A model generated the notes under the pieces. The model was given only the letters and a program-made list of their open reading frames with translations. It searched no databases and had not been told where the DNA came from. A program made the translations under genes and the position numbers. Shown here piece after piece: positions 7,782 to 32,633 of a stretch of 64,000 nt of DNA; positions within the stretch are counted from its first letter, which is position 1; every line of letters begins with the position of its first letter. Source of the stretch: Rudanella lutea DSM 19387. GTDB lineage: Bacteria > Bacteroidota > Bacteroidia > Cytophagales > Spirosomataceae. The DNA is taken from assembly GCF_000383955.1 (NCBI RefSeq), contig NZ_KB913013.1, positions 5,875,844-5,939,843 on the forward strand, given 5' to 3'.

Positions 7782-7797
7782 TCAAATATATTGAACA
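7745..7797. promoter_or_regulatory. repeated TTGAACA boxes at the antitoxin start, probable operator
   Basis: ATTGAACA occurs at 7773-7780 and 7790-7797 (17-base spacing). Inverted or related copies TGTTCA (7745-7750) and GTTCAT (7763-7768) lie just inside the gene. Spaced repeats at the start of an AbiEi-type repressor gene are consistent with autoregulation. Binding is inferred. Confidence 0.45.
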
Positions 7798-7833
7798 TTT
7801 TTATCAAGAGCAAGTACGTAGACTCCTTAGGTG

Positions 7834-8940: not shown

Positions 8941-9850
8941 AAATTGGCTTATTCCAGTTGCATACGCCCCCGTGATGAGAACAGGCACCTCTGCCTTTAG
9001 CATTCGAGGGACTGTAGCTGCCATCACAGCAAACGGTTTGGTAGTAAAGTAGTTTACGGACTAACGGGTTGAGCTTGTCGTAGAGCTTGGTTGCCTGACG
9101 ATGACCGGCTTCGGATGCCTGACGGAATCCGGCAATGGCTTCTGTTTTCCGGCCTACTTGCTGATAGCAAAGTGCCTGTTGATACAACTGTTCACCATTC
9201 AGCGAACTAGTTCTGGACAGTTCATCGTAGTGTTGAAGTGCCAGTTTATACTGTTTCGTTCGCACGTAGCTATTTGCAAGTCCTTCGTGTAGCCGGTGTT
9301 GCGTGTCTGTTTCGTCAGTTGAGACAAATCGACCGGATTGGTTGTAAAAATAGATTGCCTTAGCGTAAGCACCTTTTTCTAAGAGATTATCGGCCTTAGA
9401 CAGGTACGTTCGTACACTATCAAGGCGCTGAACTTCTCTTCGTTTTGCTTCAACTTCTGCTTTTTGTTCAGCAAGAGCGGCTATCCTTTTGTCTTCCTCC
9501 GCCTGCTTAATACGGTCTCGATATTGAAAGCCGTTCCCAATCAGGATGAAGGACATTATCCCAAGTGTGCATAGTTTTAGAGTTGGAACGAACCGGAATT
9601 TTAGTAACCTTTCGAGCCGATTTTTCCCCCAGCTTGAAGCAAAAAAAGCAAAGAGCAAAAACGACAAACTGAATCCTACATGATAGCTGAAAACAGTAAT
9701 AGCGGCCAGTATTGATAGGAGGGATAAGACATTCCACAATAGATCACCTGTATTTTCAGCCTTTTTCGGCGTCGTTTCAATCGATTCTTTAAAGTAGTCG
9801 GGAAGAACCAGATGCTCTTTAGGGATCAATTTGGGTACATACTTTTTCAT
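8903..9850 (-). CDS. membrane protein with coiled coil, TPR-like repeats and DUF3761-like C-terminus
   Basis: 315 residues from ATG 9850 (MKKYVPKL). An extended frame to 9943 has no better start. Hydrophobic segments at ~37-75 (LLSILAAITVF, LSFLLFAFFA) and ~92-110 (LGIMSFILIG) anchor it. A charged coiled coil (AEQKAEVEAKRREVQRLDSV) comes next, followed by TPR-like helices (~150-265; AYAKAIYFYNQSGRF, QYKLALQHYDEL). The end has CDGSYSPS...GACSHHGGV, the signature of DUF3761, a small Cys/His-rich module. The tail may be extracytoplasmic, but topology is uncertain. Combination unusual; role unknown. Confidence 0.6.
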   Translation of the reverse strand: MKKYVPKLIPKEHLVLPDYFKESIETTPKKAENTGDLLWNVLSLLSILAAITVFSYHVGFSLSFLLFAFFASSWGKNRLERLLKFRFVPTLKLCTLGIMSFILIGNGFQYRDRIKQAEEDKRIAALAEQKAEVEAKRREVQRLDSVRTYLSKADNLLEKGAYAKAIYFYNQSGRFVSTDETDTQHRLHEGLANSYVRTKQYKLALQHYDELSRTSSLNGEQLYQQALCYQQVGRKTEAIAGFRQASEAGHRQATKLYDKLNPLVRKLLYYQTVCCDGSYSPSNAKGRGACSHHGGVCNWNKPIYETYRKYDVNGL

Positions 9851-10054
9851 GAGGATCAAGAAAAATGGTTTGTGTATATTAAGCCGATGGAATTGTAAAT
9901 ATATCAAATAGACATGCATTTTAACCTTAAAAGGAACTCTCATAAAGGCGATGGCCGCAACAGATGATTAGCTCCGGATGATAGATAATTTGGGTGAAAA
10001 ACCGAGAAACGTCTCTCAAAAGCGGTAAATTTGAGTTTTAAATTGATAGAGTAA

Positions 10055-10276
10055 ATGGAGAATAATCAACCAGAAAAATTAGGGCCGCACGTCGAGGTAA
10101 CACCAGAAGGGCTGGTAGTGGATTTTGACGCCATCCGCAACGAAACCATTGAACGGTACGGCTTTGCCGAGAAGCCCGCCGACGAACCCTGGATTATTGG
10201 CAAGGTGACCCGGGAAGACTTCACGCTGATGAAAGAAGAGGAGGCTGAAGCAGACAGAAAAGAGGAGAAGCAGTAA
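10055..10276 (+). CDS. small acidic protein upstream of the NTase-TOPRIM gene
   Basis: 73 residues ending in a highly charged tail (KEEEAEADRKEEKQ). No recognised domain. It is the first gene of a plus-strand operon and lies 15 bases before the NTase-TOPRIM fusion. Its size, acidity and position would suit an antitoxin-like or accessory partner of the downstream nucleotidyltransferase domain, but that is inference only. Confidence 0.6.
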   Translation: MENNQPEKLGPHVEVTPEGLVVDFDAIRNETIERYGFAEKPADEPWIIGKVTREDFTLMKEEEAEADRKEEKQ

Positions 10277-10291
10277 TAGGAAGTGTAACAA

Positions 10292-12208
10292 ATGACCCGC
10301 GATCAGGAGGAGTTTTTGCAGGTGCTCAATCGGCACCAGGTGGAGTATGTTGTCATCGGGGGAAAGGCAGTCCAATCATACGGTAGTACCCGCAAGGCCG
10401 ACGACATTGATGTATGGATCAACCCATCGGCCGAAAATGCCAATAAGATGGTATCGTCGGTGAAGGAGTTTCTCGGAGCCAACATGCACCCCCGCGATTT
10501 TACCGACGATAAAATCGTGTATTTCGGGCGAAACCCGTACCGAATCGATATTCACAAGGACGTACCGGGTCTGGGTCAGTTTGCCGACCATTACCCAAAC
10601 CGTGTGCCAGCCCGCACCAAAGACGGTACCGATTACAGCGTCGTATCCCCTCATGATTTGGTGGCCAGTAAGAAAGCCGCTGGCCGGCCCAAAGACTTGC
10701 AGGACATAACGTATATAGAGGAGCGGGTTATGGGGATTACCCGGCAACCCGAACGCACCCGAAGTACTGATAAACCTGCTTATGAAGCCCAGCGGGGCAC
10801 CGCCCGCAAAGTGGACTTCGATGAGTTCAAGCAGCGCATCAACCTGGTCGAGTACGCAATGGATCAGGGCTACATCAAAGACCGGCAACGGAGCGGAGGT
10901 AATTCGGTAACGCTCTACAAAGACGATGCCCGAGGCCGGGACAAAATTGTTGTGTACCCGAATCAGCGGAGCGGCATAGACATCTACTTTAATCCTAACG
11001 ACGGAGCCGATAAGGGAACGGTAGTACAGTTTCAGCACCGGCGTGGTACGGGCGAGTGGAAAGACACTATTGAAAGCCTGCAACGCTATATCGGTCAGGT
11101 GCCCGAGCAGCAACGCCCGGCGCGACCCGCCCCACCTCCCGATAATCAACAGATACCTACTCGTGAACAGGCCGTCGTGCGGAGCTTCGACTTGAAACCG
11201 CTGACCGACGATACGTACCTGCGTGGCCGTGGGCTGTCGCCCGCTACGGTAAACGCACCGGAGTTTGAAAATACAGTTTTCAATCGTTCTTACTTTGACC
11301 GGAGCCGGGGTAAGCAGTACACGAACACCGTGTTTCCAATTAAAAATGAACAGGGAACGATCGCCATCATTGTGCGGAACGACGGCTTAAAAATGGTCGA
11401 GGGGCCGCGTGGAGATGGGGTATGGATTTCCAATCCAAAGGTGATAGGTTCCGATGGTCGTCTGGATCGGTTAGTGATTGCTGAAAATCCCATCGACGCG
11501 ATGAGCTTTCACCAATTGAAACCACCGGTAGAAGGGGAAAAAAGGTTGTACATCGGCACAGCGGGCAACCTGTCTTCGGGTGCGCCCGATACGGTGCAGA
11601 AGTTGATTGACCGCTACCAGCCGAAGCAGATCGTGATGGCGAATGATAATGACAATGGCGGTTTTCGGACGAATATCAACCTGGTTGGTCGGTTGCGGTA
11701 TCCGGGCATCGAGGAGAGCAACAACATTCAGGCGCAGTTGGCTATGCCGACGCCCAGCCAGTTACGGCTAACGGTATCGGTCAGCTACCCGGATCAGGCG
11801 ACGGGTAAGCAACAGGTGCAGCAGCTAACGGAACGGTTTTCGGCGGCATTGAATAAGAACGACCCCCGCGTGGATTCGCCGGAGGACGAGCCGACAGCAC
11901 GTATTAATGTGAGGGGCTGGCAAGGTAGCCGCACCGAGTTCGAGATTTCGATGCCCAACACCCGGCAAAACTTGGTACGTACCCAAAACGAGTTGGTAGC
12001 CGCCAAGGGGCTGAACGAGGTGGTGGCGTTGAAGTTGCCGGTACACAAGGATTTCACCGAAGACCTCCAGCGAAACGAGAAGCTGACGCTACCAGCCTTA
12101 CCCGGTGAAGCGAAGCAGCAGATGGTGCAATCGGCAGAAGGTCCGAAGATGATGCCGAAGTTTGACCTGCCAAGTTTTGCCAATGAATCAACTGGAATGA
12201 AACGATGA
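10292..12208 (+). CDS. nucleotidyltransferase domain fused to a TOPRIM primase-like protein
   Basis: 638 residues. Residues 1-145 form an AbiEii/DUF6036-like nucleotidyltransferase: VVIGGKAVQSYGS, then DDIDVWI with the DxD at D38/D40. Residues ~165-265 resemble the DNA-binding N-domain of mobile-element primases (FKQRINLVEYAMDQGYI), but without the usual zinc-finger cysteines. Residues ~300-480 hold a TOPRIM core with E398 (VIAENPIDAMSF) and the DxD-type NDNDNGG (D452/D454). The C-terminal ~150 residues are unassigned. TOPRIM proteins of this type are common on conjugative elements. The N-terminal fusion is unusual. Its stop overlaps the next start (ATGA). Confidence 0.75.
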   Translation: MTRDQEEFLQVLNRHQVEYVVIGGKAVQSYGSTRKADDIDVWINPSAENANKMVSSVKEFLGANMHPRDFTDDKIVYFGRNPYRIDIHKDVPGLGQFADHYPNRVPARTKDGTDYSVVSPHDLVASKKAAGRPKDLQDITYIEERVMGITRQPERTRSTDKPAYEAQRGTARKVDFDEFKQRINLVEYAMDQGYIKDRQRSGGNSVTLYKDDARGRDKIVVYPNQRSGIDIYFNPNDGADKGTVVQFQHRRGTGEWKDTIESLQRYIGQVPEQQRPARPAPPPDNQQIPTREQAVVRSFDLKPLTDDTYLRGRGLSPATVNAPEFENTVFNRSYFDRSRGKQYTNTVFPIKNEQGTIAIIVRNDGLKMVEGPRGDGVWISNPKVIGSDGRLDRLVIAENPIDAMSFHQLKPPVEGEKRLYIGTAGNLSSGAPDTVQKLIDRYQPKQIVMANDNDNGGFRTNINLVGRLRYPGIEESNNIQAQLAMPTPSQLRLTVSVSYPDQATGKQQVQQLTERFSAALNKNDPRVDSPEDEPTARINVRGWQGSRTEFEISMPNTRQNLVRTQNELVAAKGLNEVVALKLPVHKDFTEDLQRNEKLTLPALPGEAKQQMVQSAEGPKMMPKFDLPSFANESTGMKR

Positions 12209-12378
12209 GCAACGGTATCGAGATGCTATCCTACCCAGATATTACACAAGCATCGGGAGTAGAAACAGGCTGGTTTGGAACAGGCCCAAATGACTTAAAT
12301 TTATTGCCTTTCGTGCTCGTTTTGGCGTTTTTGTTTGTTCTATATGGAGGAATTAAACAGTATCTGAAACGCATTTAA
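12205..12378 (+). CDS. 57-residue single-span membrane protein
   Basis: A short frame (57 residues) starting MSNGIEMLSYPDITQ. Its ATG overlaps the TGA of the TOPRIM gene (ATGA), and its TAA overlaps the ATG of the exonuclease gene (TAATG). That double stop-start coupling is the main evidence it is real. One strong hydrophobic stretch (LLPFVLVLAFLFVLYGGI) is followed by a basic tail (KQYLKRI), suggesting a single membrane span with a cytoplasmic C-terminus. No family recognised. Confidence 0.65.
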   Translation: MSNGIEMLSYPDITQASGVETGWFGTGPNDLNLLPFVLVLAFLFVLYGGIKQYLKRI

Positions 12379-12953
12379 TGACCTACCTAATCATCGACAC
12401 AGAGACCAACGGCCTGCCGCAATCCTATCATTTGCCCGTTACTGACCTGACCAACTGGCCACGACTTATTTCGGTTGCCTGGGGGCTGTATGATGAGCAG
12501 GGCAAAGAGTTAGGCCGACAGTATGCAGTGGTGAAACCAGATGGATACCGATGGAACAAGGTAGCCCAGCAGGTTCATCGTATCACGCCGGAAGAAGCCG
12601 AAATAAAAGGGCAGCCGTTGGTCGATGTGTTGAACCAGCTACGGCCGGCACTGGAACGGGCTGATGCCTGGGTAGGGCATAATATCGACCTCGACTACGG
12701 TGTTATCGGAGCGGAGTTTATACGAGCCAATGAAGCGAAGCCCGGTCGGGTAGGTGAGTTTCCGGCCCGACCGGTTATCTGCACGATGGATGCCAGCGCA
12801 AAAGTGACGCCTAACCGGGAGCCGGTAAAACTGGAAGAGTTGTACAGGCTGCTAACGGGCAAGCGTATGATGGGGATGCACGACGCGACCGCCGACATGC
12901 TGGCCACCGCCCGTTGTTTTTTTGAGTTGAAGCGTAGAAGCATTTTTGTCTGA
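12378..12953 (+). CDS. DEDDh-type 3'-5' exonuclease (DnaQ/RNase T-like)
   Basis: 191 residues, one exonuclease domain. Exo I motif: IIDTETNG with the D-E pair. Exo [20 protein letters not shown]. Exo [20 protein letters not shown], with H and D in the DEDDh arrangement. The family removes nucleotides from 3' ends of DNA or RNA in repair, proofreading or RNA processing. As a stand-alone enzyme in a mobile-element operon with a TOPRIM protein, a DNA-processing role is likely but not shown. Its stop overlaps the next ATG (TGATG). Confidence 0.88.
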
Positions 12954-13480
12954 TGTTAGATAACAGACCAGCCGAAGAGCATTTTGCCCTGTTGTTCCCC
13001 GGTAAGCCAATTCCGAGCTGGGCTTATGAGACGATTCGCTATTTCGATTATCACGCCTACAACACAGGTGAGGAGAACGTCGAGACGGTTCGGCTTGAAC
13101 AGGTTGTCGGAACCGACCACGAGAGCTATGGCAATAAGCTAACCTGGCTGCAAATGCTGACCTATGCCAAAAAGCGCAGCAATTTTAGGACTGACCGAAT
13201 GCCCGGTCTGCTGGCCACCGATCCGTCACGTCTTCAATTGGCCCGAATTGACGGAACCCAGGACTATTATCTTGTAGGTGAGGGGAATCACCGACTATCC
13301 GCTTATAAGCTTTCAGGCATGGAGACAATCAATTGTGCTGTATGCGTCGCCTATGCCAGGCAAAAGCCTGTAGAACCGGTTTACAATGAACCAGAACAAC
13401 GTCATGAAAAAAATACAACGTCTTTTTCTGCCTGGCTTGCTCATTGGCGCAATGTCCTGTCAGCCAAACGCTTCCGTTGA
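12953..13480 (+). CDS. ParB/sulfiredoxin-fold-like protein
   Basis: 175 residues. The central part resembles the ParB N-terminal/Srx fold: a substrate strand ([20 protein letters not shown]), in which GEGNHR corresponds to the GxxR box that binds nucleotide in ParB-like CTPases/ATPases, followed by [14 protein letters not shown]. There is no HTH DNA-binding domain, so it is not a partition ParB as such. It is translationally coupled to the exonuclease gene and overlaps the lipoprotein start. Substrate unknown. Confidence 0.6.
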
Positions 13481-13880
13481 ACCGACTTTCCCGCCAACGA
13501 AAGCATACTACTCATTTCGGGTCTTCAAACCCACCGACCTAAACCAGCCGCGTAACGAAGTCAGCTTCGACACCCTGACGTACCGCGCTGAGGACGGAAC
13601 CACCCGCATTCTGACGAACCGGACCATCTACTTTACCAACGAATACGACACGACCATATACGCCAACGTACCCGCCGACCGGGTGCTGGAAGGCTACTTA
13701 TCGTCGAGCAAAGCGAAGAGCGTGATTATCGAAGTGGGCCTGATCGACAAGACTGGTGCAAAACGCCGACAGGATTATCAATCGACGGAAGCGACGAACC
13801 AGAGCTCAACGGCACCTTTACCCGTCCGGCTGAGAGTGCGGAAGGAGGTGGCGTTGGGGGATTTGAGATCAATTAATTAA
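13404..13880 (+). CDS. small lipoprotein
   Basis: 158 residues from ATG 13404 (MKKIQRLF), preferred over ATG 13386 because it gives a compact lipoprotein signal: a KK start, the hydrophobic stretch [11 protein letters not shown] and a cysteine in the lipobox-like AMSC. The mature part is beta-rich and soluble with no known domain. It would be a periplasmic or outer-membrane lipoprotein. It overlaps the upstream ParB-like gene by 77 bases and its 3' end overlaps the convergent kinase gene by 12 bases. Confidence 0.65.
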
Positions 13881-14396
13881 ACCCAATACCTCTACAATTT
13901 GGTCGATCATTTCATTGGTAGTCAAGACAGTGGATAGAACAATATCAGCTTCTTGTTTTAATTGAGCTTTTACATCATGTTCAGTCGAGTGATTGTCTAT
14001 CGTTAGAACTTGTTCAGATGAATAACGTGACTGTAGCCGCTCAATTCGGGTACGTTCATCTACCTCAATGTGTATGTGAATAAATTTAAACGGATTTACT
14101 AATCTTTTAATGATGTTCAGCACACTTATATGGCGTACTCCATCAATAATAAGATTGCCATTAGAGCGCCATACGACTTGGCTAAGGACACTGGCACAAA
14201 ACTGCTCAGCATCATTGTCAAGTAACCGTTCACCAATATTCTGCAAGTTTTCGCGGGTTGGCTCAATATGATGTTCTATTGCATATGAACGAACATAATC
14301 CCCAAAACTAATTCGAGGCCAATCTAACCGGGTTGCTAATGCGGTTGTTAACGTGGTTTTACCGCTGCCTATTTTGCCTGAGAAAGCTATAGTCAT
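13869..14396 (-). CDS. P-loop nucleotide/nucleoside kinase-like protein (operon gene 7)
   Basis: 175 residues. The Walker A motif is FSGKIGSGKTTL (7-15), followed by SFGDYVRSYAIEHHI. A DG(V)R motif, LIIDGVRH, sits in the position of the Walker B/substrate region, and a lid-like DERTRIERLQSRY comes later. The pattern is that of small kinases acting on (deoxy)nucleotides or dephospho-CoA. Last gene of a seven-gene minus-strand operon, 4 bases after the ASCH gene. With a methyltransferase and a radical SAM enzyme nearby, phosphorylation of a modified nucleotide is conceivable. Substrate unknown. Confidence 0.7.
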   Translation of the reverse strand: MTIAFSGKIGSGKTTLTTALATRLDWPRISFGDYVRSYAIEHHIEPTRENLQNIGERLLDNDAEQFCASVLSQVVWRSNGNLIIDGVRHISVLNIIKRLVNPFKFIHIHIEVDERTRIERLQSRYSSEQVLTIDNHSTEHDVKAQLKQEADIVLSTVLTTNEMIDQIVEVLGLIN

Positions 14397-14400
14397 GGTT

Positions 14401-14934
14401 TTAGTCTAAGACAACCCACCCTCTACGGTCTCGTTTATCAATATAAATGACTGAATCGAAGCAGGTAATTTCATCAATGGCCATCAATGTCGCATACTGA
14501 GCTTCTTTCTTATGATGCCAAAAATCGGACCCTTCTAAGCACAAGGCCGAAGCAAATGTTTGCTGCACCTGTTCAAAGACCACTGGAGTTAACTGGTATG
14601 ACCAAACGTGTGTGATGTGACAAAGTCCAATCACTGGACCACCGGACCGTTTTAGCAATAAAATGTCTCCCGACTGCACCTTACCAAACGGAGCCGATTG
14701 ATTAACTGAAAACCTTGACTCCACAGTCTTCTTTCCTTCAAGAATATATTGCAAAAAAGGCTCAACGAAGATGCCCAAGTGGAAACGAACCGTTGAGTCA
14801 TTAGTTAACTGCTCAAACTTATTTAACCAAAAGCTACTATGATTAAAGGAGTTTTGTAGTAATTCAATCAGTGCGTCTCGAAGAGAATCATTATGGTGAT
14901 ACGATATAAAAATAGAGTCTGTGTGACGTGTCAT
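14401..14934 (-). CDS. ASCH-domain protein (operon gene 6)
   Basis: 177 residues. Residues ~45-175 carry an ASCH (PUA-like) fold: VEPFLQYILEGKKTVESRFS, then PFGKVQSGDILLLKRSGGPV and IGLCHI. ASCH domains bind RNA or modified nucleobases, and some hydrolyse N4-acetylcytidine or read modified DNA. The N-terminal ~45 residues are an extra helical segment. The start codon overlaps the stop of the methyltransferase gene (ATGA). Within this operon it is a candidate reader or handler of whatever the methyltransferase and radical SAM enzyme make. Confidence 0.8.
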   Translation of the reverse strand: MTRHTDSIFISYHHNDSLRDALIELLQNSFNHSSFWLNKFEQLTNDSTVRFHLGIFVEPFLQYILEGKKTVESRFSVNQSAPFGKVQSGDILLLKRSGGPVIGLCHITHVWSYQLTPVVFEQVQQTFASALCLEGSDFWHHKKEAQYATLMAIDEITCFDSVIYIDKRDRRGWVVLD

Positions 14935-16157
14935 TCTACAAAAAGGTCAAGTGCCATCAGTAGCGCAACGATTTTATGTTTCTCAGTTTGAGTAAGCGTC
15001 TGCGTACTAAAAATTAGCTTGGACGTTTCTGACAAAGAATGCCCGGATTGAAGATAATGTAAAAATGGACTTACTTTTTGAGATGCAATGGCTGTAAAAG
15101 CTATATTATCCGATGTCCAAATAGTTATGCGATTTCGCTCAGTAGCCCGACGAGACACAGAATGAAAATACTTTCCTTCCGCCTGGGTTGGCCAATAGTC
15201 AAAGTATCCTGCCTCTAAAGCCTTTCGCACTTGTATCTTTTTGTTACCAATCCGGTATTCAGTCCAAGCGTCTTGGTCCAAAAGTAAAGGATGTTGCGGA
15301 GCTATCAAAGTATCGGCCATCTTCCGAAAAATCCACAAGTCCCCTAAACGCCAAATGTCAAGATGTACGTCGTTAGTTGCCAGTGCCTGCCGTTCAAACG
15401 CGGGTGTCTGGTACGCTAACAACCTGGGTATTTTTTTTACGAGTTCAAACCCACGTTGAGCAGCCATTAAACCGATAGCTCGTCGGTCTGACGAAGCAGA
15501 AGGCCGAGTTAGGGCAGGTAAAACGCTAAGCCAGCATTCACCACCTGTAGCTAAGAGTTCAGCTCCCCTATCCAAATAGGCTTCGTAGTAGTCGAGATAC
15601 CAAGGGGGGTCAGCAATGACTAATTCGTAAGTCGGTCGACTATCATGTAATGGATATAACAGATCCTGCTGAATGACCGAAGCAGCGTATCCGTTTTTAT
15701 GAAAATCCTGTACGAGAGACAGGCTACGTTCGTAGAGGACCGTTTTTATACCATGCTCGATTAAAGCAGGTAGTAGGGTTTTGACACCAAATAGAGCAAC
15801 AGATTGATTCGAGGCAGAATAACGCTTAACGCGTCTTGCCAAACTATTGATTGTATGGTGGGTAAAGCGCCAATCAAAATCATTAGGATGCTCATCTGGT
15901 AAGAAAGCAGTGCTTTCTGCCAATTGCGGATGTGGGGAAAGGGTGGATAAATTACCTACAGCATTGGTTACATAAGGGATATTGGCCTTATTAAGCGCTC
16001 GCTCAATATCAATCGGGAACGCTCCTAAACTTTCTCGAATGTAATCAGCTAAAGATAGCTGCTTCCCCAAAGAACGCCGGTGCACTTTTTGCAACCGGCG
16101 TATAAGTCGTTTTTGGTAAGAAACATCAGATGTCTCCTGTATGCCTGTCAAGACCAT
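14931..16157 (-). CDS. DPPW-motif SAM-dependent methyltransferase-like protein (operon gene 5)
   Basis: 408 residues. A helical N-terminal ~110 residues precede a Rossmann methyltransferase core with SVALFGVKTLLPAL (SAM-binding loop), an acidic strand end (TVLYERS) and the catalytic LVIADPPW at 183-186, the signature of amino-group methylation of adenine or a related base (MT-A70/N6-adenine type). The C-terminal ~150 residues contain an HTH-like stretch. No restriction endonuclease is adjacent. The start overlaps the radical SAM gene by 10 bases. Target (DNA, RNA or free nucleotide) unknown. Confidence 0.72.
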   Translation of the reverse strand: MVLTGIQETSDVSYQKRLIRRLQKVHRRSLGKQLSLADYIRESLGAFPIDIERALNKANIPYVTNAVGNLSTLSPHPQLAESTAFLPDEHPNDFDWRFTHHTINSLARRVKRYSASNQSVALFGVKTLLPALIEHGIKTVLYERSLSLVQDFHKNGYAASVIQQDLLYPLHDSRPTYELVIADPPWYLDYYEAYLDRGAELLATGGECWLSVLPALTRPSASSDRRAIGLMAAQRGFELVKKIPRLLAYQTPAFERQALATNDVHLDIWRLGDLWIFRKMADTLIAPQHPLLLDQDAWTEYRIGNKKIQVRKALEAGYFDYWPTQAEGKYFHSVSRRATERNRITIWTSDNIAFTAIASQKVSPFLHYLQSGHSLSETSKLIFSTQTLTQTEKHKIVALLMALDLFVE

Positions 16158-17152
16158 ATCCTATGCTCAAATACACGTTTAGAGCGTTCTTCGGATGTGA
16201 ATCGTTTTTGCAATTCATCATTCCACACAGCCACGGCCTCTTGCTGAATCTTAATTGCTTGATGGTGGGAGTCATTCATCCGTAGTGAGGTTGGCGTAAA
16301 TTCTTTAATCGGCAGTGGAATGGTCCGCAGAAGAAAGTTGGGGTGAATTCGCTCCTGAATTTGATCCATGAAGTCAACCATTTTGTCTCGTAAGCCATCC
16401 GCTGTCTGTGCCGTTAAGGTCACGTAGCCGTACATATCAATTCGGCTTTCAATTAGCCGTTTCATGATTACGAATTGGTAGTCGAATAAAGCCGAAACCG
16501 CGTTCGTGTTGAAAGAGAAAGAAGCTGGGTCAAAACCTTTGAAGCAGCCAACTCGTCCGTAGAGCGTGGAATCAGCCAGCCGATTAACTTCTTCTTTTGT
16601 TAAATTACTCCATAGGTAGTCATTGCTCAGGTTATCGTCAGACCATACGTACACCTCCCCTTTTAATCCCCTTCGCCGGATGGCATCAATGATCCAAAGT
16701 GTCCATTCAGGAACCAAATCAGGCTGACCACCGGATAAATCGATAATGGGTAAGGGCTGCTCCTCAGCTTGGTATAAGTCTAAGAGTTCGTCAGCAGTCA
16801 AGTAGGCAGCGTGTTTGAGGTTACCACTTAACAAATTATAATCGACAAAACAGTACCAGCACCGCCAGCTACAGACTGCATTCTGAAATACTTGAACGCG
16901 TACCAGATTTTCAAAAGGCAGTTGCAGTGCATGATGCGCCGGATCGATTGGCAAAGGGTTTTCAGGAAATCCAGGCGATGACTCTCTATGGAAATGATGA
17001 ATTCGGCCAAAACCTGAGCAGTTATAAGGCAACGTCAAATCCTTACTTTGAGTACTACCAGGAAACTGAGTGATCAACACCTGTTGTCTTTCCTGGATGA
17101 TACCTTTTCTGCGTAACTGTTCAGAATGTTCTTCCGTATTGATGAGAGCCAT
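16148..17152 (-). CDS. radical SAM enzyme (operon gene 4)
   Basis: 334 residues. The radical SAM cluster motif is CSWRCWYC (C94, C98, C101; CX3CX2C), followed by a GGQP-like SAM-binding segment (IIDLSGGQPDLVPEW) and a TIM-barrel-like remainder. An N-terminal extension has NCSGFGRIHHFHRE, possibly a second metal- or substrate-binding site. No SPASM-type cysteine cluster is seen at the C-terminus. Radical SAM enzymes perform difficult C-H chemistry on RNA, peptides or cofactors. It sits between the DUF4186 protein (7-base gap) and the methyltransferase (10-base overlap), so they are surely co-translated. Substrate unknown. Confidence 0.85.
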   Translation of the reverse strand: MALINTEEHSEQLRRKGIIQERQQVLITQFPGSTQSKDLTLPYNCSGFGRIHHFHRESSPGFPENPLPIDPAHHALQLPFENLVRVQVFQNAVCSWRCWYCFVDYNLLSGNLKHAAYLTADELLDLYQAEEQPLPIIDLSGGQPDLVPEWTLWIIDAIRRRGLKGEVYVWSDDNLSNDYLWSNLTKEEVNRLADSTLYGRVGCFKGFDPASFSFNTNAVSALFDYQFVIMKRLIESRIDMYGYVTLTAQTADGLRDKMVDFMDQIQERIHPNFLLRTIPLPIKEFTPTSLRMNDSHHQAIKIQQEAVAVWNDELQKRFTSEERSKRVFEHRIWS

Positions 17153-17159
17153 TGGTATA

Positions 17160-17753
17160 TCAGCTAAGGGGGAGTACTAATTGAGTGCCTACTGGCGGAT
17201 TGTCAAAAAGCCGAATATCGATGTAGTGCATTACTAATCCAGTTAAATACTGAAGTTCGCTGTCTGTCAGGTCGCGATCATAAGGAATATTGTGCCAGTA
17301 ACGAATGCATTTCCGACAACAGGTTGCGGTAGCATGTTGGGCGCAGTATATGATGTTTTTGGGGGTCATTGGGGTTTGCCTTCCATCCCAAATCGATTCT
17401 CTGCCAGAACAACTCACTGACCGTTGAAGCCGTTTATAGACAGCTTCTTCCATTTTTACACGCCCCGTCTGAAATTTCTTCCAACTAACCTTCAAATCCA
17501 ATTGAATTGTCCAGAAAACATGCCGAACGTACTCTTTTCGTAAAGCCGCAAAGAGCGTATCGACATCATCAAGATCACGGCTATAAATCCGATTCCAATC
17601 CACTATATCAGCATCACAAGCCTGGCATTTACCTCCTTGGTAATCTTCTACTTTGACCTTCCCCTTTTTGGGCCGGAAACAATGTAAGCCTTCATCACAC
17701 TTGGTGCTGGTGCAGGTGACTTTAGGTAATACTATTTGATCGTCATTAGCCAT
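17160..17753 (-). CDS. zinc-ribbon plus DUF4186-like protein (operon gene 3)
   Basis: 197 residues. The N-terminus has several CxxC/CxxxxC pairs (CTSTKCDEGLHC, GKCQACDAD), suggesting a zinc ribbon. The C-terminal half matches the DUF4186 pattern: DGRQTPMTPKNIIYCAQHATATCCRKC, then WHNIPYDRDLTDSE. In that family the QHATATCCRxC and WHxI motifs are nearly invariant and suggest a metal site. The biochemical role of DUF4186 is unknown. Here it is fused to an extra zinc ribbon and placed directly before the radical SAM gene, so it may act with that enzyme. Confidence 0.72.
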   Translation of the reverse strand: MANDDQIVLPKVTCTSTKCDEGLHCFRPKKGKVKVEDYQGGKCQACDADIVDWNRIYSRDLDDVDTLFAALRKEYVRHVFWTIQLDLKVSWKKFQTGRVKMEEAVYKRLQRSVSCSGRESIWDGRQTPMTPKNIIYCAQHATATCCRKCIRYWHNIPYDRDLTDSELQYLTGLVMHYIDIRLFDNPPVGTQLVLPLS

Positions 17754-17770
17754 GTGGACTTTATATCGAT

Positions 17771-19048
17771 TTAGCTAAGCGCACTTTCTAACATATCTTT
17801 TTCCTGCACAGTCAGTGCATTCAAGCGAATGTACTCATTTAGAACGTTTTTTGCGATAATCCGAGGATTTGTATTAGTAGACTGAAGACTTACGGCTGTA
17901 CTCCACCAATTGCGGCCTTGCTGAACTTTCAACAGGTATGCCAAATAATTAGCCAAAGCCCCTGGATCAACGTCCTCTTGTCTGGCTATTTCGATAACCT
18001 TCGCTTTTAGCACCTGTTCGCGACCACCTGCGGCATTTACTACTTTTATGGCTAATTCTCCTCCCCTGCCGTCCAACACGACATCATTCGCGAATTGATT
18101 AGCGGCTTTCTCTTCGTCAGAAAGATTCATTTCTGGTGAAAATAGAGCAGATGATTCAACAACTTCACGTGTTGTTTCTTCTAAATAATCGGATGCATGC
18201 TTAACCTCATGCAGTAGATCGAAGAGCCATCGAATCGCCGACATTGTGTTCTGCTTAAGCACTATCACATTACGATTATTAAATCGAAAACAGGCTCCGT
18301 GGAAATTGACGGAATCAGATAACGGTAGAACCGGTATACCCAGTGACCAAACATACCTTAATGTGTTTTCGAAAGTAAGCGATTCGTACAAGGATATCAC
18401 TTGTAGCCGAAATTCGCGATAGTCAGTCGGAATCGGCTGCACTGGTAGATAAGCACTTGCTTTAAGAACAATAGCAGCCAACGACTTTGCGTAAAGCGTG
18501 TATGCTGCAATATTGGCTAAATCTGTGTTTACAGGTTTCTTATAGCGAGTATTGATAGACTGATACGCAGGTACAGGCAGTGGTTGCGAACTAACTATAT
18601 CTTCAATGGGGATGGCAAAGATTCGAGTCAACCGGTCCAAAAGTTGTTTTATTGCGGTCTGGTACGACTCGTGCTTTGAATCGAAGTCACTTAATACGTT
18701 TCCTGCCCATTGAGGTACTAATCGCTGCTTGACAAATTTTTCGGTGAAGCCAGCTTGTTTAAGTTTGGTTAATAAAGTCTGCCACTTAATAGTCAGATCG
18801 TGTTCAGGTTGAGGTGCAAAATCCCAACTTCTAATGCTATTGATTCGACCTTGAGCAAGGATAGTGGCAGCGTTCGGCAGATCGTCAGGAACGGGTGTGT
18901 TGGATGTCAAAGCTCGCTGACGAAGTGCTTCAATGCCTTCTTCAGTCTCAGGGAAAATGAATCCGTGCTGCTGGAGCGACCGATGGAACATTTGCTCGAA
19001 AGCATCGGAATCCGACTCGTGAGAATCATTGAGCGGGTTATTGTTCAT
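17771..19048 (-). CDS. ImmA/IrrE-family metallo-endopeptidase (operon gene 2)
   Basis: 425 residues from ATG 19048. A start at 19096 is possible, but 19048 gives only an 11-base overlap with the sigma-factor gene. The zinc-binding HEVKH (H280, E281, H284) sits in LLHEVKHASDYLE, and a downstream acidic helix (SDEEKAANQFANDVV) supplies the third ligand region typical of the family. ImmA/IrrE proteases cleave specific repressors in response to stress or mobile-element signals. Following a sigma-factor gene here, it may control that factor or its partner. The N-terminal ~200 residues are not assigned. Confidence 0.82.
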   Translation of the reverse strand: MNNNPLNDSHESDSDAFEQMFHRSLQQHGFIFPETEEGIEALRQRALTSNTPVPDDLPNAATILAQGRINSIRSWDFAPQPEHDLTIKWQTLLTKLKQAGFTEKFVKQRLVPQWAGNVLSDFDSKHESYQTAIKQLLDRLTRIFAIPIEDIVSSQPLPVPAYQSINTRYKKPVNTDLANIAAYTLYAKSLAAIVLKASAYLPVQPIPTDYREFRLQVISLYESLTFENTLRYVWSLGIPVLPLSDSVNFHGACFRFNNRNVIVLKQNTMSAIRWLFDLLHEVKHASDYLEETTREVVESSALFSPEMNLSDEEKAANQFANDVVLDGRGGELAIKVVNAAGGREQVLKAKVIEIARQEDVDPGALANYLAYLLKVQQGRNWWSTAVSLQSTNTNPRIIAKNVLNEYIRLNALTVQEKDMLESALS

Positions 19049-19712
19049 CGTGCTTATGAGATAAAGTTTGCTTTGTTTGGTCAAAATGCTTGTCAAGGTA
19101 CGCCTTTATAGTTCGTTTGCTTCGCCGAATGATCTGACGTATATTATCATTGTTTGTATTATACCGAGCGGCTAACTCATTTAAGACCTTATCCGGTAAG
19201 TTAAGAGCTTGGCTTCCCTTACCCGGTTCGTAGTACTGCCAGTAGGTACGAATGATATGTTGATCTCGTTCACTAAGCTGTTCGATGGCCGTGCGGGTTA
19301 ATTCTTCACTAAAAGTTGTTGACGACTCAATACCGTTATCGAAGGTCTCGGGTAGTTCATCCTCAAACAGCGAATCGGGAGGATAGTAACCATTAATTAA
19401 TAACAGTTTATATTCCCGTCTGGCAATTGTCAGAATCCAATTCTGGACTTTCTGAATCTTTACCTCTGCTGAAGCGTTCACGTCCATTTGAAACGAGCCA
19501 CTGTACATAAATACGTTCAAGAACGTGTTATTGAGAACAGTCCACTTAAGCTCGTCATCATACCCATTACCATAGCAAACGCTGGTTAATGCACGCCATA
19601 GAAAGTCTTTATGGCGATTGTAAAAGATTGCGAACGCCTGCTGTCGGCTACGTTCATCATGTTGGTGGGATATGAGTCTAAGTAGCTCAAGGTCCGATAC
19701 GCTGTTAGTCAT
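19038..19712 (-). CDS. sigma-70 family (ECF-like) sigma factor (operon gene 1)
   Basis: 224 residues. Region 2 is recognisable by AFAIFYNRHKDFLWRALTSV and a later VQNWILTIARREYK. Region 4 has LSERDQHIIRTYWQYY, then LAARYNTNNDNIRQIIRRSKRTIKAYL, the helix-turn-helix for the -35 element. It is the first gene of the seven-gene operon, so it may direct RNA polymerase to this operon's promoter or to others. Its start is 38 bases from a 28-bp-stem hairpin. No anti-sigma gene is adjacent; the next gene is the metallo-protease. Confidence 0.8.
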   Translation of the reverse strand: MTNSVSDLELLRLISHQHDERSRQQAFAIFYNRHKDFLWRALTSVCYGNGYDDELKWTVLNNTFLNVFMYSGSFQMDVNASAEVKIQKVQNWILTIARREYKLLLINGYYPPDSLFEDELPETFDNGIESSTTFSEELTRTAIEQLSERDQHIIRTYWQYYEPGKGSQALNLPDKVLNELAARYNTNNDNIRQIIRRSKRTIKAYLDKHFDQTKQTLSHKHDEQ

Positions 19713-19749: not shown

Positions 19750-19812
19750 TTTACATATAGAAGTACGAACCGTGACACCTCTCTTGTCACGGTTCGTACT
19801 TCTATATGTAAA
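19750..19812. repeat. perfect 28-bp-stem hairpin between divergent genes
   Basis: Arms 19750-19777 and 19785-19812 are exact reverse complements with a 7-base loop. It lies 38 bases upstream of the sigma-factor start (minus) and 12 bases upstream of the DUF2188 gene start (plus), so it would be in the 5' leader of either transcript. It is too long and exact for a common operator dyad. It may be an insulator/terminator, an RNA structure in the leader, or a target-site relic. Confidence 0.85.
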
Positions 19813-20291: not shown

Positions 20292-20318
20292 ATGCTCCAC
20301 TTTTTTTCTCATTTAATA

Positions 20319-21089
20319 ATGCCAATATCTGAGTTTATTTTTTCAACTGGCTCCAGTATAGCGGTAAATATTCTGTCGAACCGTTTAGACGCTTTTCTCT
20401 CCGACCGACTTCCGACTAGGCAACGGTGGGCCTTATGGCGAGCTTCATTACTGGCAAGTCCTAATCAATACTTTCGGGTTTCTATCGCTTATCTGTACCG
20501 CATCTATTTAGATGGTGAATATTTACTAATTAAAGGGCATCGAATCGATCAGTATCAACCAGTGGGAGGTGTGCGAAAGGTGTATTCTTCAGCGAAAATT
20601 CTGTCTGAATTGGGTATACTCGACGACGATTGTCTGAAGATAGATGACGTGAGCCGACAGGATTTACGCGTTCGCGTACCAGCTCGTAAGCTATTAAAAT
20701 TCTTAAACTGGTACGAAAGCCGCGAAGACCGTGAGGTTGACCAGCAGCGTGAGTTTGTCGAAGAACTAATCAAACCTGGCTTTTTACCCGCCAATCTTTT
20801 TACCCCAGTAACAACTCAGTACCGGTACACGGTCCCAACCTTCCACTTCTCGCCCCATTTTCAGTGCCAAGAATTGCTTTATCATGAAGTGTTTGACGTG
20901 AAGCTAAGTCCCCAGCAAGAACAGGCAATGAAACACTTAAGGGACACGCCTTCCGATCAATACGTTTGGGTTGATGAAGGGAGTATCTTAATGCTGGGGC
21001 ATGACAAACGTTTGAAGCGGAAGCCATTCCAAATAGGTGAACACGCTCGTCTGCTGATTAGTAAAGATCACAAACTATTTAACCAATAA
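20319..21089 (+). CDS. SMODS-associated NUDIX-like protein (CBASS-type effector candidate)
   Basis: 256 residues from ATG 20319. An earlier ATG at 20292 abuts the upstream terminator stem and is unlikely. The segment YFRVSIAYLYRIYLDGEYLLIKGHRIDQYQPVGG resembles the NUDIX-like domain linked to SMODS nucleotidyltransferases. The catalytic Nudix box is not seen. The N-terminus has a weakly hydrophobic stretch (PISEFIFSTGSSIAVNIL) but no clear two-helix membrane unit. It lies 12 bases upstream of the CD-NTase gene. Known context: such proteins accompany cyclic-oligonucleotide synthases in anti-phage CBASS systems and may sense or transmit the signal. Confidence 0.6.
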   Translation: MPISEFIFSTGSSIAVNILSNRLDAFLSDRLPTRQRWALWRASLLASPNQYFRVSIAYLYRIYLDGEYLLIKGHRIDQYQPVGGVRKVYSSAKILSELGILDDDCLKIDDVSRQDLRVRVPARKLLKFLNWYESREDREVDQQREFVEELIKPGFLPANLFTPVTTQYRYTVPTFHFSPHFQCQELLYHEVFDVKLSPQQEQAMKHLRDTPSDQYVWVDEGSILMLGHDKRLKRKPFQIGEHARLLISKDHKLFNQ

Positions 21090-21101
21090 TTAACCACTGT
21101 A

Positions 21102-22739
21102 ATGACACCTACAATCCCAGTTGTTACACCGTCAGGCTCTGACTTCCAGATTAGCGATCTGGATGACCTTTTAAACCGTTTGGGTGAAAGTCTGCAATTA
21201 GATGCGACTCGCCGACGATTAGCGGAAGAACGCTACAAAACCGTCGCGGACTGGATTGAGCGTGACGAGGCATTTTTCAAGACCGCTCTTTTGAACGTGT
21301 ATGCGCAAGGCTCTTTCCGAATCAGAACCACATCCAAGCCGTATAAACGAAATGAATTCGACTTGGATTTTGTGGTCCATCTCGATTTTCTGACCGGGAA
21401 GAATTACGATCCCATGGAAGTCCTGAACCAGTTGGAAAGGCGGTTGCGCGAAAATGATACGTACAAAGGCATGATTGAGCGGAAGAACCGATGCATTCGG
21501 ATTACTTACGCCAATGATTTCCATATGGATATCATGGTAGGCTGTCAGGAGACTTACTATGAGCCTAACCGAATTATCGTGCCTGATCGTAAAACGAAGA
21601 ATTGGACGGCAAGCAACCCAATTGGTTACGGTGATTGGTTTACAGGAAGAGCACAGTTAGCTCCTAAGCGCCAAGAAATACTTCAAAAAGCCTACAATGC
21701 ACGAAATTTAGAGATTCGGGCCAGTGAGAATCTACCAGCAACGCTTCCGTATGAATTAAAGCCGCCCCTTGAACGGGCTGTCCAGATTTTCAAACGTGGT
21801 CGGGATGTGTACTTTTACGGTCAGGAAGACTTAGCAACGTCAAGTATCATCTTGACAACATTAGCTGCTGAAGCTTATAATGGTGAGTTATCCGTATTTG
21901 AGACTATTGACCGGATTATTACTCACATTGAGCAAAAGTCTCGGAATCTCTGGGGAGGTATTGAGCCTTTCGTAATTCCCAATCCGGCTAACCCTAAAGA
22001 GAACTTTAGCGAAAAGTGGTTTGAAGACCGTAAGCTTTTCGTCGCATTTTTGAAGTTCATAGCCGATCTACGAAGGACTTGGGAAGCCCTTAAAGTGGGT
22101 GCTAATCCAACCCTTCGAGAATCTCTATTGGAGAGTGCTTTCGGCGAAAATCGGATTAAGCGGCTGGTAGCTGAACAACGCAATTACCGAGATAGCTTTG
22201 AGAAAGCTAAGCGACTCACCCCGATTGCACAAGCAGCCGGATTAGGTACGCTTAATACTACGGCAACTGTGAAGCCGACTTTTGAACCAGCTCCTGTGCA
22301 AAACCAGCCCGCTCGGCGGTTCGGGGGTAAAGCATTTCCACTACATTCTACCCAGTTTTCTGCTGGAACAAATTATCTACAACAACGCTGGATTGATGAA
22401 ACATACCCCGGCGTATTTACTTGTACTGTTCGAAACGGTGTTCTTACATGCACGGGGAAGATTAAGCCAACCGACGATTGCGACGAATACCGCATTTGCA
22501 TTGAGTACGTACCGGGTGCACCTCCACAAGTCTTCATCAATAGCCACCGCATAAACCCAGGTAAGCGTATTCACATGTACAGCAACGGTGCTTTGTGCTT
22601 ACACTACCCACCGGACATCAACTGGAAGCATCATACATCAGTAGCCGCCTACACGATTCCGTGGATCGCTGAATGGATAGTATGTTACGAATTATGGAAG
22701 CTGACGGGTAAATGGGAAGGGGCAGAATTCACGCACTAA
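21102..22739 (+). CDS. CD-NTase (cyclic oligonucleotide synthase) fused to a C-terminal E2-like domain
   Basis: 545 residues. The N-terminal ~380 residues are a SMODS/CD-NTase: YAQGSFRIRT (G70-S71), EFDLDFVVHLD (D87, D89) and the third acidic residue in FHMDIMVG (D143), so the metal site looks intact. The last ~140 residues look like a ubiquitin-conjugating E2 fold: YRICIEYVPGAPPQVFI, then HMYSNGALCLHYPP with a candidate catalytic Cys at 499, and the tail WIVCYELWKLTGKWEGAEFTH typical of prokaryotic E2-like proteins in type II CBASS. There E2-like proteins are usually separate and conjugate the NTase to a partner. Product nucleotide and effector unknown. Confidence 0.75.
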   Translation: MTPTIPVVTPSGSDFQISDLDDLLNRLGESLQLDATRRRLAEERYKTVADWIERDEAFFKTALLNVYAQGSFRIRTTSKPYKRNEFDLDFVVHLDFLTGKNYDPMEVLNQLERRLRENDTYKGMIERKNRCIRITYANDFHMDIMVGCQETYYEPNRIIVPDRKTKNWTASNPIGYGDWFTGRAQLAPKRQEILQKAYNARNLEIRASENLPATLPYELKPPLERAVQIFKRGRDVYFYGQEDLATSSIILTTLAAEAYNGELSVFETIDRIITHIEQKSRNLWGGIEPFVIPNPANPKENFSEKWFEDRKLFVAFLKFIADLRRTWEALKVGANPTLRESLLESAFGENRIKRLVAEQRNYRDSFEKAKRLTPIAQAAGLGTLNTTATVKPTFEPAPVQNQPARRFGGKAFPLHSTQFSAGTNYLQQRWIDETYPGVFTCTVRNGVLTCTGKIKPTDDCDEYRICIEYVPGAPPQVFINSHRINPGKRIHMYSNGALCLHYPPDINWKHHTSVAAYTIPWIAEWIVCYELWKLTGKWEGAEFTH

Positions 22740-22865: not shown

Positions 22866-23687
22866 ATGAGATGTATCTTTTGTAAGCAAGAATCCTCCGG
22901 CTCTAAAAGCGTTGAGCATATTGTTCCTGAATCGCTTGGAAATAAGTCGTACGTTTTACCTGCGGGCATCGTGTGTGATAAATGCAATCAATATTTCGCT
23001 TTAAAAATTGAAAAAATTCTTCTTGAGCAGGAGTTCTTTAAAAACTTTAGACATCGAAATAAGATAGAGTCTAAGCGCGGAAGAATACCTAAGGGCAAGG
23101 TGATAGTACCGGAAACGTTATACGAAGCTGATGTTCTACTTACAAAACAACAACCTGCAATAGTTTTGCTAAACTCAGAGTCATTTGAGTTAGTGTCTAC
23201 TGGAAAGGTTGATCACTTAATTATTCCATATGTACCAAAACCTGAAAAAAATAATCAGCACATTGCTCGATTCTTAGGTAAGGTGACATTGGAATCGTTT
23301 GCACAACGTCTATTGGTTAATGAAGAGTGGTTAGAACAGTGGATCAACGATAATCAATTTGATTTGCTAAGAAATTACGTCAGATATAATCTCGGCGTAA
23401 CTAAATGGAACTATAATGTTCGTCAAATTTATGCTGAGGATGAAAAGTTCTTTTACCCGGATGGGAGCTACGTGGACATGGTATTCGAATCTGATTTTTT
23501 ATACACGCGTCATGGTGAGCTGTATTTTACATTGGCTTTAAAAGGTTATGAATTTACAATTAATGTTGGAGGGCCTAATTTGGATGGTTATGTAGATTGG
23601 CTTAAGGAGAACGACAATGATTCTCCATTGTATAGAAGCAAAAATTTCGCTAAACACGTACCTCAACCAATAAGAATGAAGACATGA
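22866..23687 (+). CDS. HNH-endonuclease-like protein
   Basis: 273 residues. The N-terminal ~45 residues have a zinc-HNH layout: C3xxC6 (CIFC), VEHIVPESLGN with the catalytic-type H18, and VCDKCNQYF with C37xxC40 and N41. The following ~230 residues are unassigned, lower in GC and probably the target-recognition part. It is isolated between a 50-bp palindrome and a terminator hairpin, so it has its own transcript. Defence-island position beside the CBASS-like pair suggests DNA cleavage in anti-phage defence; this is inference. Confidence 0.7.
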   Translation: MRCIFCKQESSGSKSVEHIVPESLGNKSYVLPAGIVCDKCNQYFALKIEKILLEQEFFKNFRHRNKIESKRGRIPKGKVIVPETLYEADVLLTKQQPAIVLLNSESFELVSTGKVDHLIIPYVPKPEKNNQHIARFLGKVTLESFAQRLLVNEEWLEQWINDNQFDLLRNYVRYNLGVTKWNYNVRQIYAEDEKFFYPDGSYVDMVFESDFLYTRHGELYFTLALKGYEFTINVGGPNLDGYVDWLKENDNDSPLYRSKNFAKHVPQPIRMKT

Positions 23688-32344: not shown

Positions 32345-32633
32345 GTAGATTGGGTTTAACGTAAATGACTTGTTTTGGCTGGAAGAAAACCCACGACAAC
32401 AGCGAGATCAGAAATGACGGATGCTTATACCGTTCGCCCCAGCGGAGCAGTAGCCAGGAGCCGACGAGCGTGGCCAGAATGACCACGTACACGGGGCGGG
32501 GAATTGGGAGTATTGTCCGGGCCAGCGACACCACGGTCACCAGGCCGATGAGCAGACAGACATACAATCCCAATTCCTGCATCCGCATCCCCAGAATCCG
32601 CGTGGGCTTTTCCAGAGATTTTTGAACCTTCAT
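32301..32633 (-). CDS. traF: conjugative transposon protein TraF (DUF4133, VirB3-like)
   Basis: 110 residues with two hydrophobic segments (LGLYVCLLIGLVTVVSLARTI and VYVVILATLVGSWLLL), preceded by the conserved RILGMRMQELG and followed by a basic tail (YVKPNLRGKVGKLRRSIPRL). Position between traE and traG is the standard order. Overlaps traG by 44 bases and sits 2 bases after traE. Confidence 0.88.
   Translation of the reverse strand: MKVQKSLEKPTRILGMRMQELGLYVCLLIGLVTVVSLARTILPIPRPVYVVILATLVGSWLLLRWGERYKHPSFLISLLSWVFFQPKQVIYVKPNLRGKVGKLRRSIPRL

Follow-up and report, generated by a model that had tools for sequence, protein, structure and literature searches.

The operon at positions 13869-19712 of the analysed stretch of DNA from Rudanella lutea DSM 19387 (64,000 nucleotides, positions 5,875,844 to 5,939,843 of contig NZ_KB913013.1, here called the window) belongs to a gene cassette whose six core genes recur in the same order in distant phyla. 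These core genes encode an XRE/M78 protease, a DUF4186 protein, a radical S-adenosylmethionine (SAM) enzyme, a DPPW transferase, an ASCH-domain protein and a kinase. The cassette is a conserved unit and not a chance neighbourhood. We propose that it is a horizontally moving, self-regulated unit of two blocks that processes a modified nucleotide and is likely protective, and we put the probability of this reading at about one half. The features of the window are the following:

19041-19712, minus strand: front-end gene 1, an extracytoplasmic function (ECF)-like sigma factor of 224 amino acids (matches to TIGR02937 and Sigma70_r4)
17774-19048, minus strand: front-end gene 2, an ImmA/IrrE (M78-type) metallopeptidase with intact HExxH, lacking the N-terminal XRE DNA-binding domain that its relatives have (alignment with relatives)
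17163-17753, minus strand: DUF4186 protein with an N-terminal Cys/His extension and the motif HATATCCRKC (PF13811, 6.3e-22; conserved columns)
16151-17152, minus strand: radical SAM enzyme, the signature gene of the cassette, with CxxxCxxC and an extra invariant Cys203 (family scan, alignment)
14934-16157, minus strand: DPPW class I transferase with a predicted BpsA-like overall architecture (relatives, predicted fold)
14404-14934, minus strand: ASCH-domain protein with KTxESR and conserved C-terminal K167, D169 and W173 (family scan, alignment)
13872-14396, minus strand: P-loop nucleotide-kinase-like protein (AAA_18, 1.8e-13; adenylate-kinase/UPF0200 structures; PADLOC VakA, 1.8e-10)
19750-19812, no strand assigned: perfect 28-nt inverted repeat with a 7-nt loop upstream of the sigma gene, a candidate control element

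The seven minus-strand open reading frames (ORFs) follow each other with short overlaps or with gaps of at most 17 bases, as an initial annotation of the window had described. The sigma and protease genes overlap by 11 bases, provided that the protease starts at the preferred ATG at 19048 and not at the TTG at 19096, which is also in frame. By the ORF coordinates, gaps of 17 and 7 bases separate the DUF4186 gene from the protease and radical SAM genes, respectively; the radical SAM and transferase genes overlap by 10 bases, the transferase and ASCH genes by 4, and 4 bases lie between the ASCH and kinase genes. The same annotation had credited every gene with clear motifs, which holds firmly for the DUF4186 protein and the kinase and less well for the others. 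The radical SAM protein, with its CxxxCxxC motif, reaches 24.5 bits against a cut-off of 29.5, the ASCH protein lies exactly at the cut-off with 21.2 bits, and the sigma factor stays under the cut-offs (TIGR02937, 2.6e-6; Sigma70_r4, 3.4e-4). No significant Pfam match was obtained for the protease and transferase proteins of the window themselves, so that their identity was derived from aligned relatives and, for the transferase, also from the predicted fold. Of 72 aligned members of the protease family, 49 match M78 and 69 match HTH_3. Since the window is part of the alignments, residues that are invariant in a family are present in its copies by construction. The 3' end of the kinase gene overlaps a plus-strand ORF (13386-13880) by 12 bases (13869-13880).

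In 84,980 species genomes, a scan of the contigs with a six-row radical SAM alignment as query yielded 84 relatives, of which 80 were kept; as the scan starts from two short peptide patterns, more distant relatives may have been missed. Individual loci are designated by L numbers; loci lacking 3.6 kb on the needed side were left uncounted, and L017 was dropped, since it lies on the same contig as L012. All six core genes are present in 45 of the 57 loci with room on both sides, and 36 of the 57 show the canonical order on one strand. Where the flank offered enough room, profile searches detected the XRE/M78 gene in 63, the DUF4186 gene in 62 and a DUF6932 gene in 49 of 68 loci upstream, and the transferase gene in 55, the ASCH gene in 60 and the kinase gene in 63 of 67 loci downstream. 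Median intergenic gaps range from -26 to +8 bases across the loci (here and below with starts assigned by script), and in L022, L031, L034, L046 and L057 single open frames each match a pair of core genes (g6-g7, twice g5-g6, g2-g7 and g3-g6). The divergence of every gene pair is correlated (Mantel r of 0.60-0.90 for 21 pairs, with 0 of 500 permutations as high). The alignments comprise 77 of 82 rows for the radical SAM protein, 57 of 62 for the transferase, 57 of 68 for ASCH, 57 of 73 for the kinase, 43 of 58 for DUF6932 and 69 of 73 for DUF4186, the remainder being near copies, odd rows, or rows unaccepted for folding. Reduced forms exist as well: the radical SAM gene stands alone in L088, L021 keeps three of the six core genes, and L038, L046, L061 and L083 have no control block nearby.

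Such a block is visible in the rearranged loci L067, L073 and L085: there the radical SAM gene is separated from the front gene, the XRE-M78 gene and the DUF4186 gene, which stay together. The radical SAM, transferase, ASCH and kinase genes likewise stay together in L067 and L073, and in L085 the transferase gene is reversed. We therefore read the cassette as two blocks, one for control, to which DUF4186 belongs, and one of enzymes.

The front gene of the control block is exchangeable. It is of the DUF6932 type in 56, of the DUF4160 type in 12 and of the sigma type in 3 of the 71 tree rows with known front, no front gene having been assigned in 11 of the 82 rows. The three sigma-type loci are the window, L021 and L024. 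In the radical SAM tree, which was built by a quick search and carries Shimodaira-Hasegawa-like approximate likelihood ratio test (SH-aLRT) support only, the window groups with three DUF6932-type rows from Hymenobacter (96%), and L021 and L024 lie inside a mostly DUF4160-type group (100%). The supported branches require two separate sigma groups, so that on this tree sigma-type front ends arose twice. Given its two separate places in the tree and its presence in only 3 of 71 front slots, the sigma factor was rejected as a core member, although the initial annotation had made it a defining part of a self-regulated seven-gene set. The number of XRE-M78 proteins without HTH_3 (3 of 72) equals that of the sigma-type loci: the window and L021 peptidases, scanned singly, lack the domain, and in L024 no helix-turn-helix (HTH) was seen by eye. 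The DUF4160-type gene was assigned in 12 loci with a home-made profile (one member scanned with Pfam falls just below the cut-off), and the likeness of its partner to DUF2442 was judged by eye only. Front genes overlap the XRE gene with a median gap of -4, and the DUF6932 alignment displays a GS...DxD pattern, a nucleotidyltransferase motif.

Some further observations concern these front ends. Just upstream of the sigma gene, L021 (6000-7370) and L024 (188-1555) encode a ThiF/E1-like protein, whose N-terminus appears JAB-like by eye. Outside the cassettes, DUF6932 is followed by a partner frame of approximately 315-350 amino acids in 4 of 7 listed loci (L093, L095, L098 and L104), perhaps a separate two-gene module, and L096 and L100 have an XRE-M78-like neighbour instead.

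Upstream of the DUF6932 gene, 55 of 58 loci possess the 20-bp palindrome ACACAAC-N6-GTTGTGT, which is absent from L064, L076 and L091. It lies at -57 to -21 of the assigned start in 53 loci and at -78 in two. The consensus was derived from the same loci in which it was then counted (L009 and L017 excluded), with 100 mononucleotide shuffles (mean 0.33, maximum 2) and the rest of the loci as controls; counted over all loci plus the window, there are 69 sites with up to two mismatches, 66 of them at the first gene. Outside cassettes, 19 DUF6932 loci were examined and none showed a site at up to three mismatches; the palindrome as a general feature of DUF6932 genes was therefore rejected. The DUF4160-type loci have another palindrome, TTAACAT-N2-ATGTTAA, in 8 of 12 cases (shuffled mean 0.66, maximum 2), and the three sigma-type loci, window included, have neither. 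In the window, the 28-nt inverted repeat lies about 38 bases before the sigma gene, and an 18-nt piece of its arm has no other occurrence in the genome at up to two mismatches. It is a candidate control element, but it is also possible that it represents a terminator, a transcript hairpin or the end of a mobile element. As 55 of the 58 DUF6932-type loci have this palindrome where the operon begins, autoregulation of the cassette is well supported at the level of sequence, and this part of the initial proposal stands.

The cassette moves. Seven pairs of related loci were compared by matches with E-values of 1e-20 or better, a threshold at which diverged flanks could be missed. Two pairs have only the cassette in common, with 82-83% DNA identity and unmatched flanks: L074/L070 (common DNA 7446-13255, cassette 7487-13318) and L075/L092 (common DNA 7439-13078, cassette 7483-13396). 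The common DNA begins 41-77 bases before gene 1 in four of the seven pairs. The plasmid loci L009/L008 from Tolypothrix and Aulosira are 95% identical over the cassette, with an edge 59 bases before gene 1, and in L012/L014 the common DNA begins 77 bases before gene 1; in both pairs it extends past the kinase gene. Several of the Tolypothrix cassette genes are listed within an 18,401-base insertion together with an integrase and ExeA, where no system is recognised in the available part of the article (PMC9679502).

On plasmids, tblastn detected the radical SAM protein in 7 of 72,556 records with 46-49% identity, and six of these seven plasmids are predicted to be conjugative. Five of these seven were examined for gene order, and all five carry the same one; the transferase of L011 is unannotated and was found by profile. 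ASCH matches on plasmids are confined to exactly these seven records, and only there is DUF4186 covered to at least 80%, with 41 further records matching its core only. In the taxonomic order to which the window belongs, 2 of 291 genomes possess the full-length radical SAM protein (four others match at superfamily level only) and 2 of 194 possess DUF4186, namely the two that also have the full-length radical SAM protein. By the terms of the initial annotation, its reading would have been refuted by homologues lying mostly apart from each other; they do not, on which the conserved loci, the genomes of the order and the plasmid records agree.

According to the record titles, 14 phylum names occur among 83 entries (82 tree rows and L009): Pseudomonadota (21), Bacteroidota (14), Cyanobacteriota (10), Actinomycetota (9), Chloroflexota (7), Acidobacteriota (6), Planctomycetota (4), Ignavibacteriota (3), Myxococcota (2), Verrucomicrobiota (2), and one entry each for Nitrososphaerota (a thaumarchaeal metagenome-assembled genome, MAG), Bdellovibrionota, Melainabacteria and Bacillota; one entry has no phylum. 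Many entries are MAGs, and binning errors could account for single placements, above all for that of the archaeal entry.

Within the enzyme block, CxxxCxxC, GGxP, WSDDNLS and Cys203 of the radical SAM protein are invariant over 77 rows, and no family assignment beyond the superfamily level was obtained. The kinase is adenylate-kinase-like and matches adenylate-kinase/UPF0200 structures; the PADLOC model VakA is matched by 29 of 57 cassette kinases. A dCTP-deaminase/dUTPase-like gene is present in seven loci, in five of them between the DUF4186 and radical SAM genes, and a dGTPase-like frame lies -3 to 98 bases from the kinase gene in five cyanobacterial loci (in L007 on the opposite strand). 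Nucleotides as the substrate class are favoured by the kinase and by the dCTP-deaminase-like and dGTPase-like genes, the latter two being present in a minority of loci only, so that the modification of nucleotides or nucleic acids suggested by the initial annotation is the favoured reading on the nucleotide side.

The ASCH protein has a conserved KTxESR motif. In the YqfB-type N4-acetylcytidine (ac4C) amidohydrolase, a Lys-Thr-Glu triad is described with the Thr nucleophile at Lys+3 (PMC6972931, available part). At the corresponding position, 53 of the 57 cassette proteins have Glu and the other 4 have Asp. A YqfB-type amidohydrolase was rejected, since the position is acidic in all 57, and on this ground we favour binding over YqfB-type hydrolysis.

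The transferase has a predicted fold (AlphaFold predicted local distance difference test, pLDDT, 91), whose nine best matches in the PDB are eight chains of the branched-chain polyamine synthase BpsA and one predicted Pyrococcus methyltransferase (template modelling, TM, scores of 0.50-0.54, for BpsA over 329-348 columns). TM scores with general methyltransferases are about 0.3, and the matches of the BpsA group have root mean square deviations of 6-7 A. The predicted likeness is one of overall architecture: the cassette transferase shares only 12-15% identity with BpsA and carries the DPPW motif, and just two of the 57 aligned members match the BpsA_C model (best E 0.0046). PF10237 (N6-adenine methyltransferase-like) is matched by 29 of 57 members (best 1.9e-8), the window member being unmatched.

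For DUF4186, a helical fold was predicted (pLDDT 90). Foldseek returned four matches in the PDB, all with E-values above 6 and none at 0.001. A sequence search of solved structures with the profiles of DUF4186, transferase, radical SAM, ASCH and DUF6932 gave weak matches only (best E 0.008). The Pithovirus protein A0A481Z275 (BFVD) has a DUF4186-like fold (E 1.6e-5, 25% identity) and is the sole match below 0.001 in the viral library. YneG from E. coli shares the DUF4186 core with the cassette proteins but differs from them in that these add the N-terminal Cys/His extension. The 13 listed of the 41 other plasmid records with DUF4186 align only from residue 41-63 onward.

XRE repressors paired with M78 peptidases are known as switches from CapH/CapP of the cyclic-oligonucleotide-based anti-phage signalling system (CBASS) and from IrrE/DdrO. 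By analogy with these switches and with the radical SAM/kinase pairs of viperins, a mechanism can be drawn for the cassette. The control block would consist of the front-end gene, the M78 metallopeptidase, which normally forms one chain with an XRE repressor domain, and the attached DUF4186 gene. The XRE domain would occupy an operator of its own, presumably the palindrome at the first gene, and keep the operon low, until a trigger (DNA damage, infection or a metabolite) leads the peptidase domain to inactivate the repressor, possibly by cleavage, and the operon is induced. In the window type, the sigma factor would replace the repressor, and the HTH-less peptidase may act on or together with the sigma factor. 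The enzyme block (radical SAM enzyme, transferase, ASCH protein, kinase and sometimes the dCTP-deaminase/dUTPase-like enzyme) would then make or process a modified nucleotide. In a putative order of steps, the radical SAM enzyme would perform the difficult C-H chemistry, the DPPW amino-alkyl or methyl transferase, when present, would decorate an amino group, the kinase would raise the product towards the di- or triphosphate, and the ASCH protein would bind the modified base. The likely benefit would be that the host or the element is protected against invaders.

An anti-phage role is plausible from the gene context, although putative. Beside the cassette of the window lies a CBASS-type pair (20292-22739, plus strand), composed of a two-transmembrane (2TM)-type effector and a nucleotide cyclase-E2-like fusion (PADLOC 2.7e-249), and defence and mobile-element families occur among the immediate neighbours of some cassettes. 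The neighbours were scanned as one alignment of 125 of 136 chosen proteins, cut at 330 amino acids, and the figures are family counts for the first 25 families, not numbers of neighbours with a match. The neighbourhood also holds an HNH-type protein near six cassettes (window 22866-23684, plus strand, and L036, L037, L040, L041 and L068), which lies directly against the kinase gene in L036 and L040 and has a weak IscB likeness. A large protein resembling a conjugation-type ATPase by eye is encoded in the window (29891-32407, minus strand), L018, L021, L035 and L045, and a DUF763-type protein directly follows or overlaps the kinase gene in the alphaproteobacterial loci L010, L068, L072 and L082.

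Several results weigh against the proposed protective nucleotide pathway. Nine of the 45 complete loci are rearranged (L031, L033, L034, L042, L067, L071, L073, L084 and L087). Of the loci with room downstream, 12 of 67 lack the transferase gene, and of those with room upstream, 6 of 68 lack the DUF4186 gene, so that the pathway would have to tolerate such losses. The correlated divergence of the gene pairs may partly mirror host kinship and not joint transfer only, and in three of the seven related pairs (L010/L082, L050/L056 and L039/L066) the flanks are common as well. Most loci lack the accessory nucleotide enzymes, and the matches of the kinase to the defence library may reflect the general nucleotide-kinase fold. 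Defence genes do stand beside some cassettes, but they were counted without a matched control and are suggestive only. Finally, no relative of the radical SAM protein was found in phages and viral contigs, so that phages neither carry nor visibly counter the cassette. The same result led us to reject a phage or viral origin. One ASCH protein searched in phages and viral sequences gave no match, and the DUF4186 core alone was found in three phage records.

Parts of the cassette resemble known systems. The (PIN)-GNAT-EVE/ASCH/AAA_17 operons, which in the available part of PMC7641849 are predicted to be toxin-antitoxin or modified-base systems, likewise combine an ASCH protein, a small P-loop kinase/ATPase and a base-modifying enzyme in a mobile operon, sometimes with XRE domains. 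The cassette instead has the radical SAM enzyme and the DPPW transferase, with the XRE-M78 regulator, DUF4186 and the palindrome as extras. No GNAT or EVE gene is among the seven window genes, nor was one seen in the flank clusters of the relatives, which were inspected by eye, with no GNAT or EVE model searched. CapH/CapP, IrrE/DdrO and RmrA, which in PADLOC is presumably a RosmerTA component, share with the cassette an HTH repressor and an M78 peptidase over a defence-type operon; the PADLOC RmrA matches to the peptidase core are weak (0.002 at best). In contrast to these, the cassette has HTH and peptidase in one chain, an exchangeable front gene and a palindrome that is conserved across phyla. 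The absence of a named system claimed by the initial annotation still holds: no PADLOC model names the core set (the kinase model is the best for the cassette with 1.8e-10, the others being generic and weak), and no description of the gene set was found in the open-access literature, including the available parts of PMC10853773, PMC7641849 and PMC7159879; subscription literature lay outside this scope, and an earlier sighting of a part is therefore possible. DUF6932 is not mentioned in the open-access literature searched.

Among the alternatives, an addiction module of toxin and antitoxin is the one to be considered most seriously, although we regard it as unlikely. DUF6932 or DUF4160 would be the toxin, XRE-M78 the antitoxin, and the enzyme block would supply the antidote or the substrate of the toxin, resulting in plasmid retention. 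The overlap of the front genes with the XRE gene, the location of cassettes on plasmids and the GS...DxD pattern of DUF6932 fit such a module, and DUF4160/DUF2442 is a described toxin-antitoxin pair, dhiTA (PMC8198452, available part). However, the putative toxin is absent in the window, L021 and L024, where the sigma factor takes its place, and the window keeps all core genes without it (L021 only three). A modification of tRNA or rRNA for stress or drug tolerance, in which RNA would be the target of ASCH protein and transferase, and a precursor that of the kinase, appears somewhat less probable still. ASCH belongs to the PUA-like superfamily (PMC7641849, available part). In RNA modification, radical SAM chemistry together with methyl transfer is common. 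The dCTP-deaminase-like and dGTPase-like companions, where present, are however deoxynucleotide enzymes. Moreover, a sparse and plasmid-borne spread is unusual for tRNA modification.

It is improbable that the operon makes a diffusible nucleoside-type antibiotic against competitors. Radical SAM enzyme, transferase and kinase do stand in one operon under apparent own control, and a protein resembling an ABC (ATP-binding cassette) permease by eye is present in L034, L040 and L051; but it occurs in these three loci only, and the family scans of the window found no transporter- or resistance-like core gene. Least of all do we expect a divergent prokaryotic viperin with a kinase that makes chain-terminating nucleotides. 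Like some viperins, the cassette pairs a radical SAM enzyme with a small nucleotide kinase, the kinase matches PADLOC VakA and viperin-kinase fusion models, and 52 of 77 radical SAM relatives weakly match the viperin model NF038283. The best of these matches has an E-value of only 2e-5, however, and the window protein reaches 15.4 bits against a cut-off of 180. The model matches proteins in 308 of 345 Bacteroidota genomes, one of them over the cut-off, and among the matches listed, Bacteroidota proteins below the cut-off reach approximately 65-95 bits. As the cassette protein scores below such other radical SAM proteins, membership in the viperin family was rejected, and its likeness to viperins is, judged by these scores, one of the superfamily only; the cassette also has further core genes. 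Its product may nevertheless be similar to that of viperins.

If the nucleotide reading is true, the cassette would represent an unrecognised modification or immunity pathway with a very wide but sparse distribution. Its recurrence behind its own switch suggests a travelling defence or self-preservation kit. Tentatively, and with less confidence than for the cassette as a whole, one could go further and assume a new class of genetic conflict system, in which a pathway centred on the radical SAM enzyme makes a modified nucleotide that marks nucleic acids or poisons them. Its switch would be of a plug-in type: the M78 peptidase would be kept, and its DNA-binding partner, either a sigma factor or an XRE repressor accompanied by DUF6932 or DUF4160, would be swapped together with the operator. 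On the nucleotide reading, the cassette would be of interest for its signature radical SAM family, a DUF for whose fold no solved structure gave a match, and a portable pair of regulator and operator that appears nearly the same in an archaeal MAG and across distant phyla. The repeated exchange of the repressor for a sigma factor can be seen as a natural experiment on the workings of M78 switches. Concrete questions are opened by these findings, namely which nucleotide is made, what triggers the peptidase and which role DUF4186, the family of YneG in E. coli, plays in this context.

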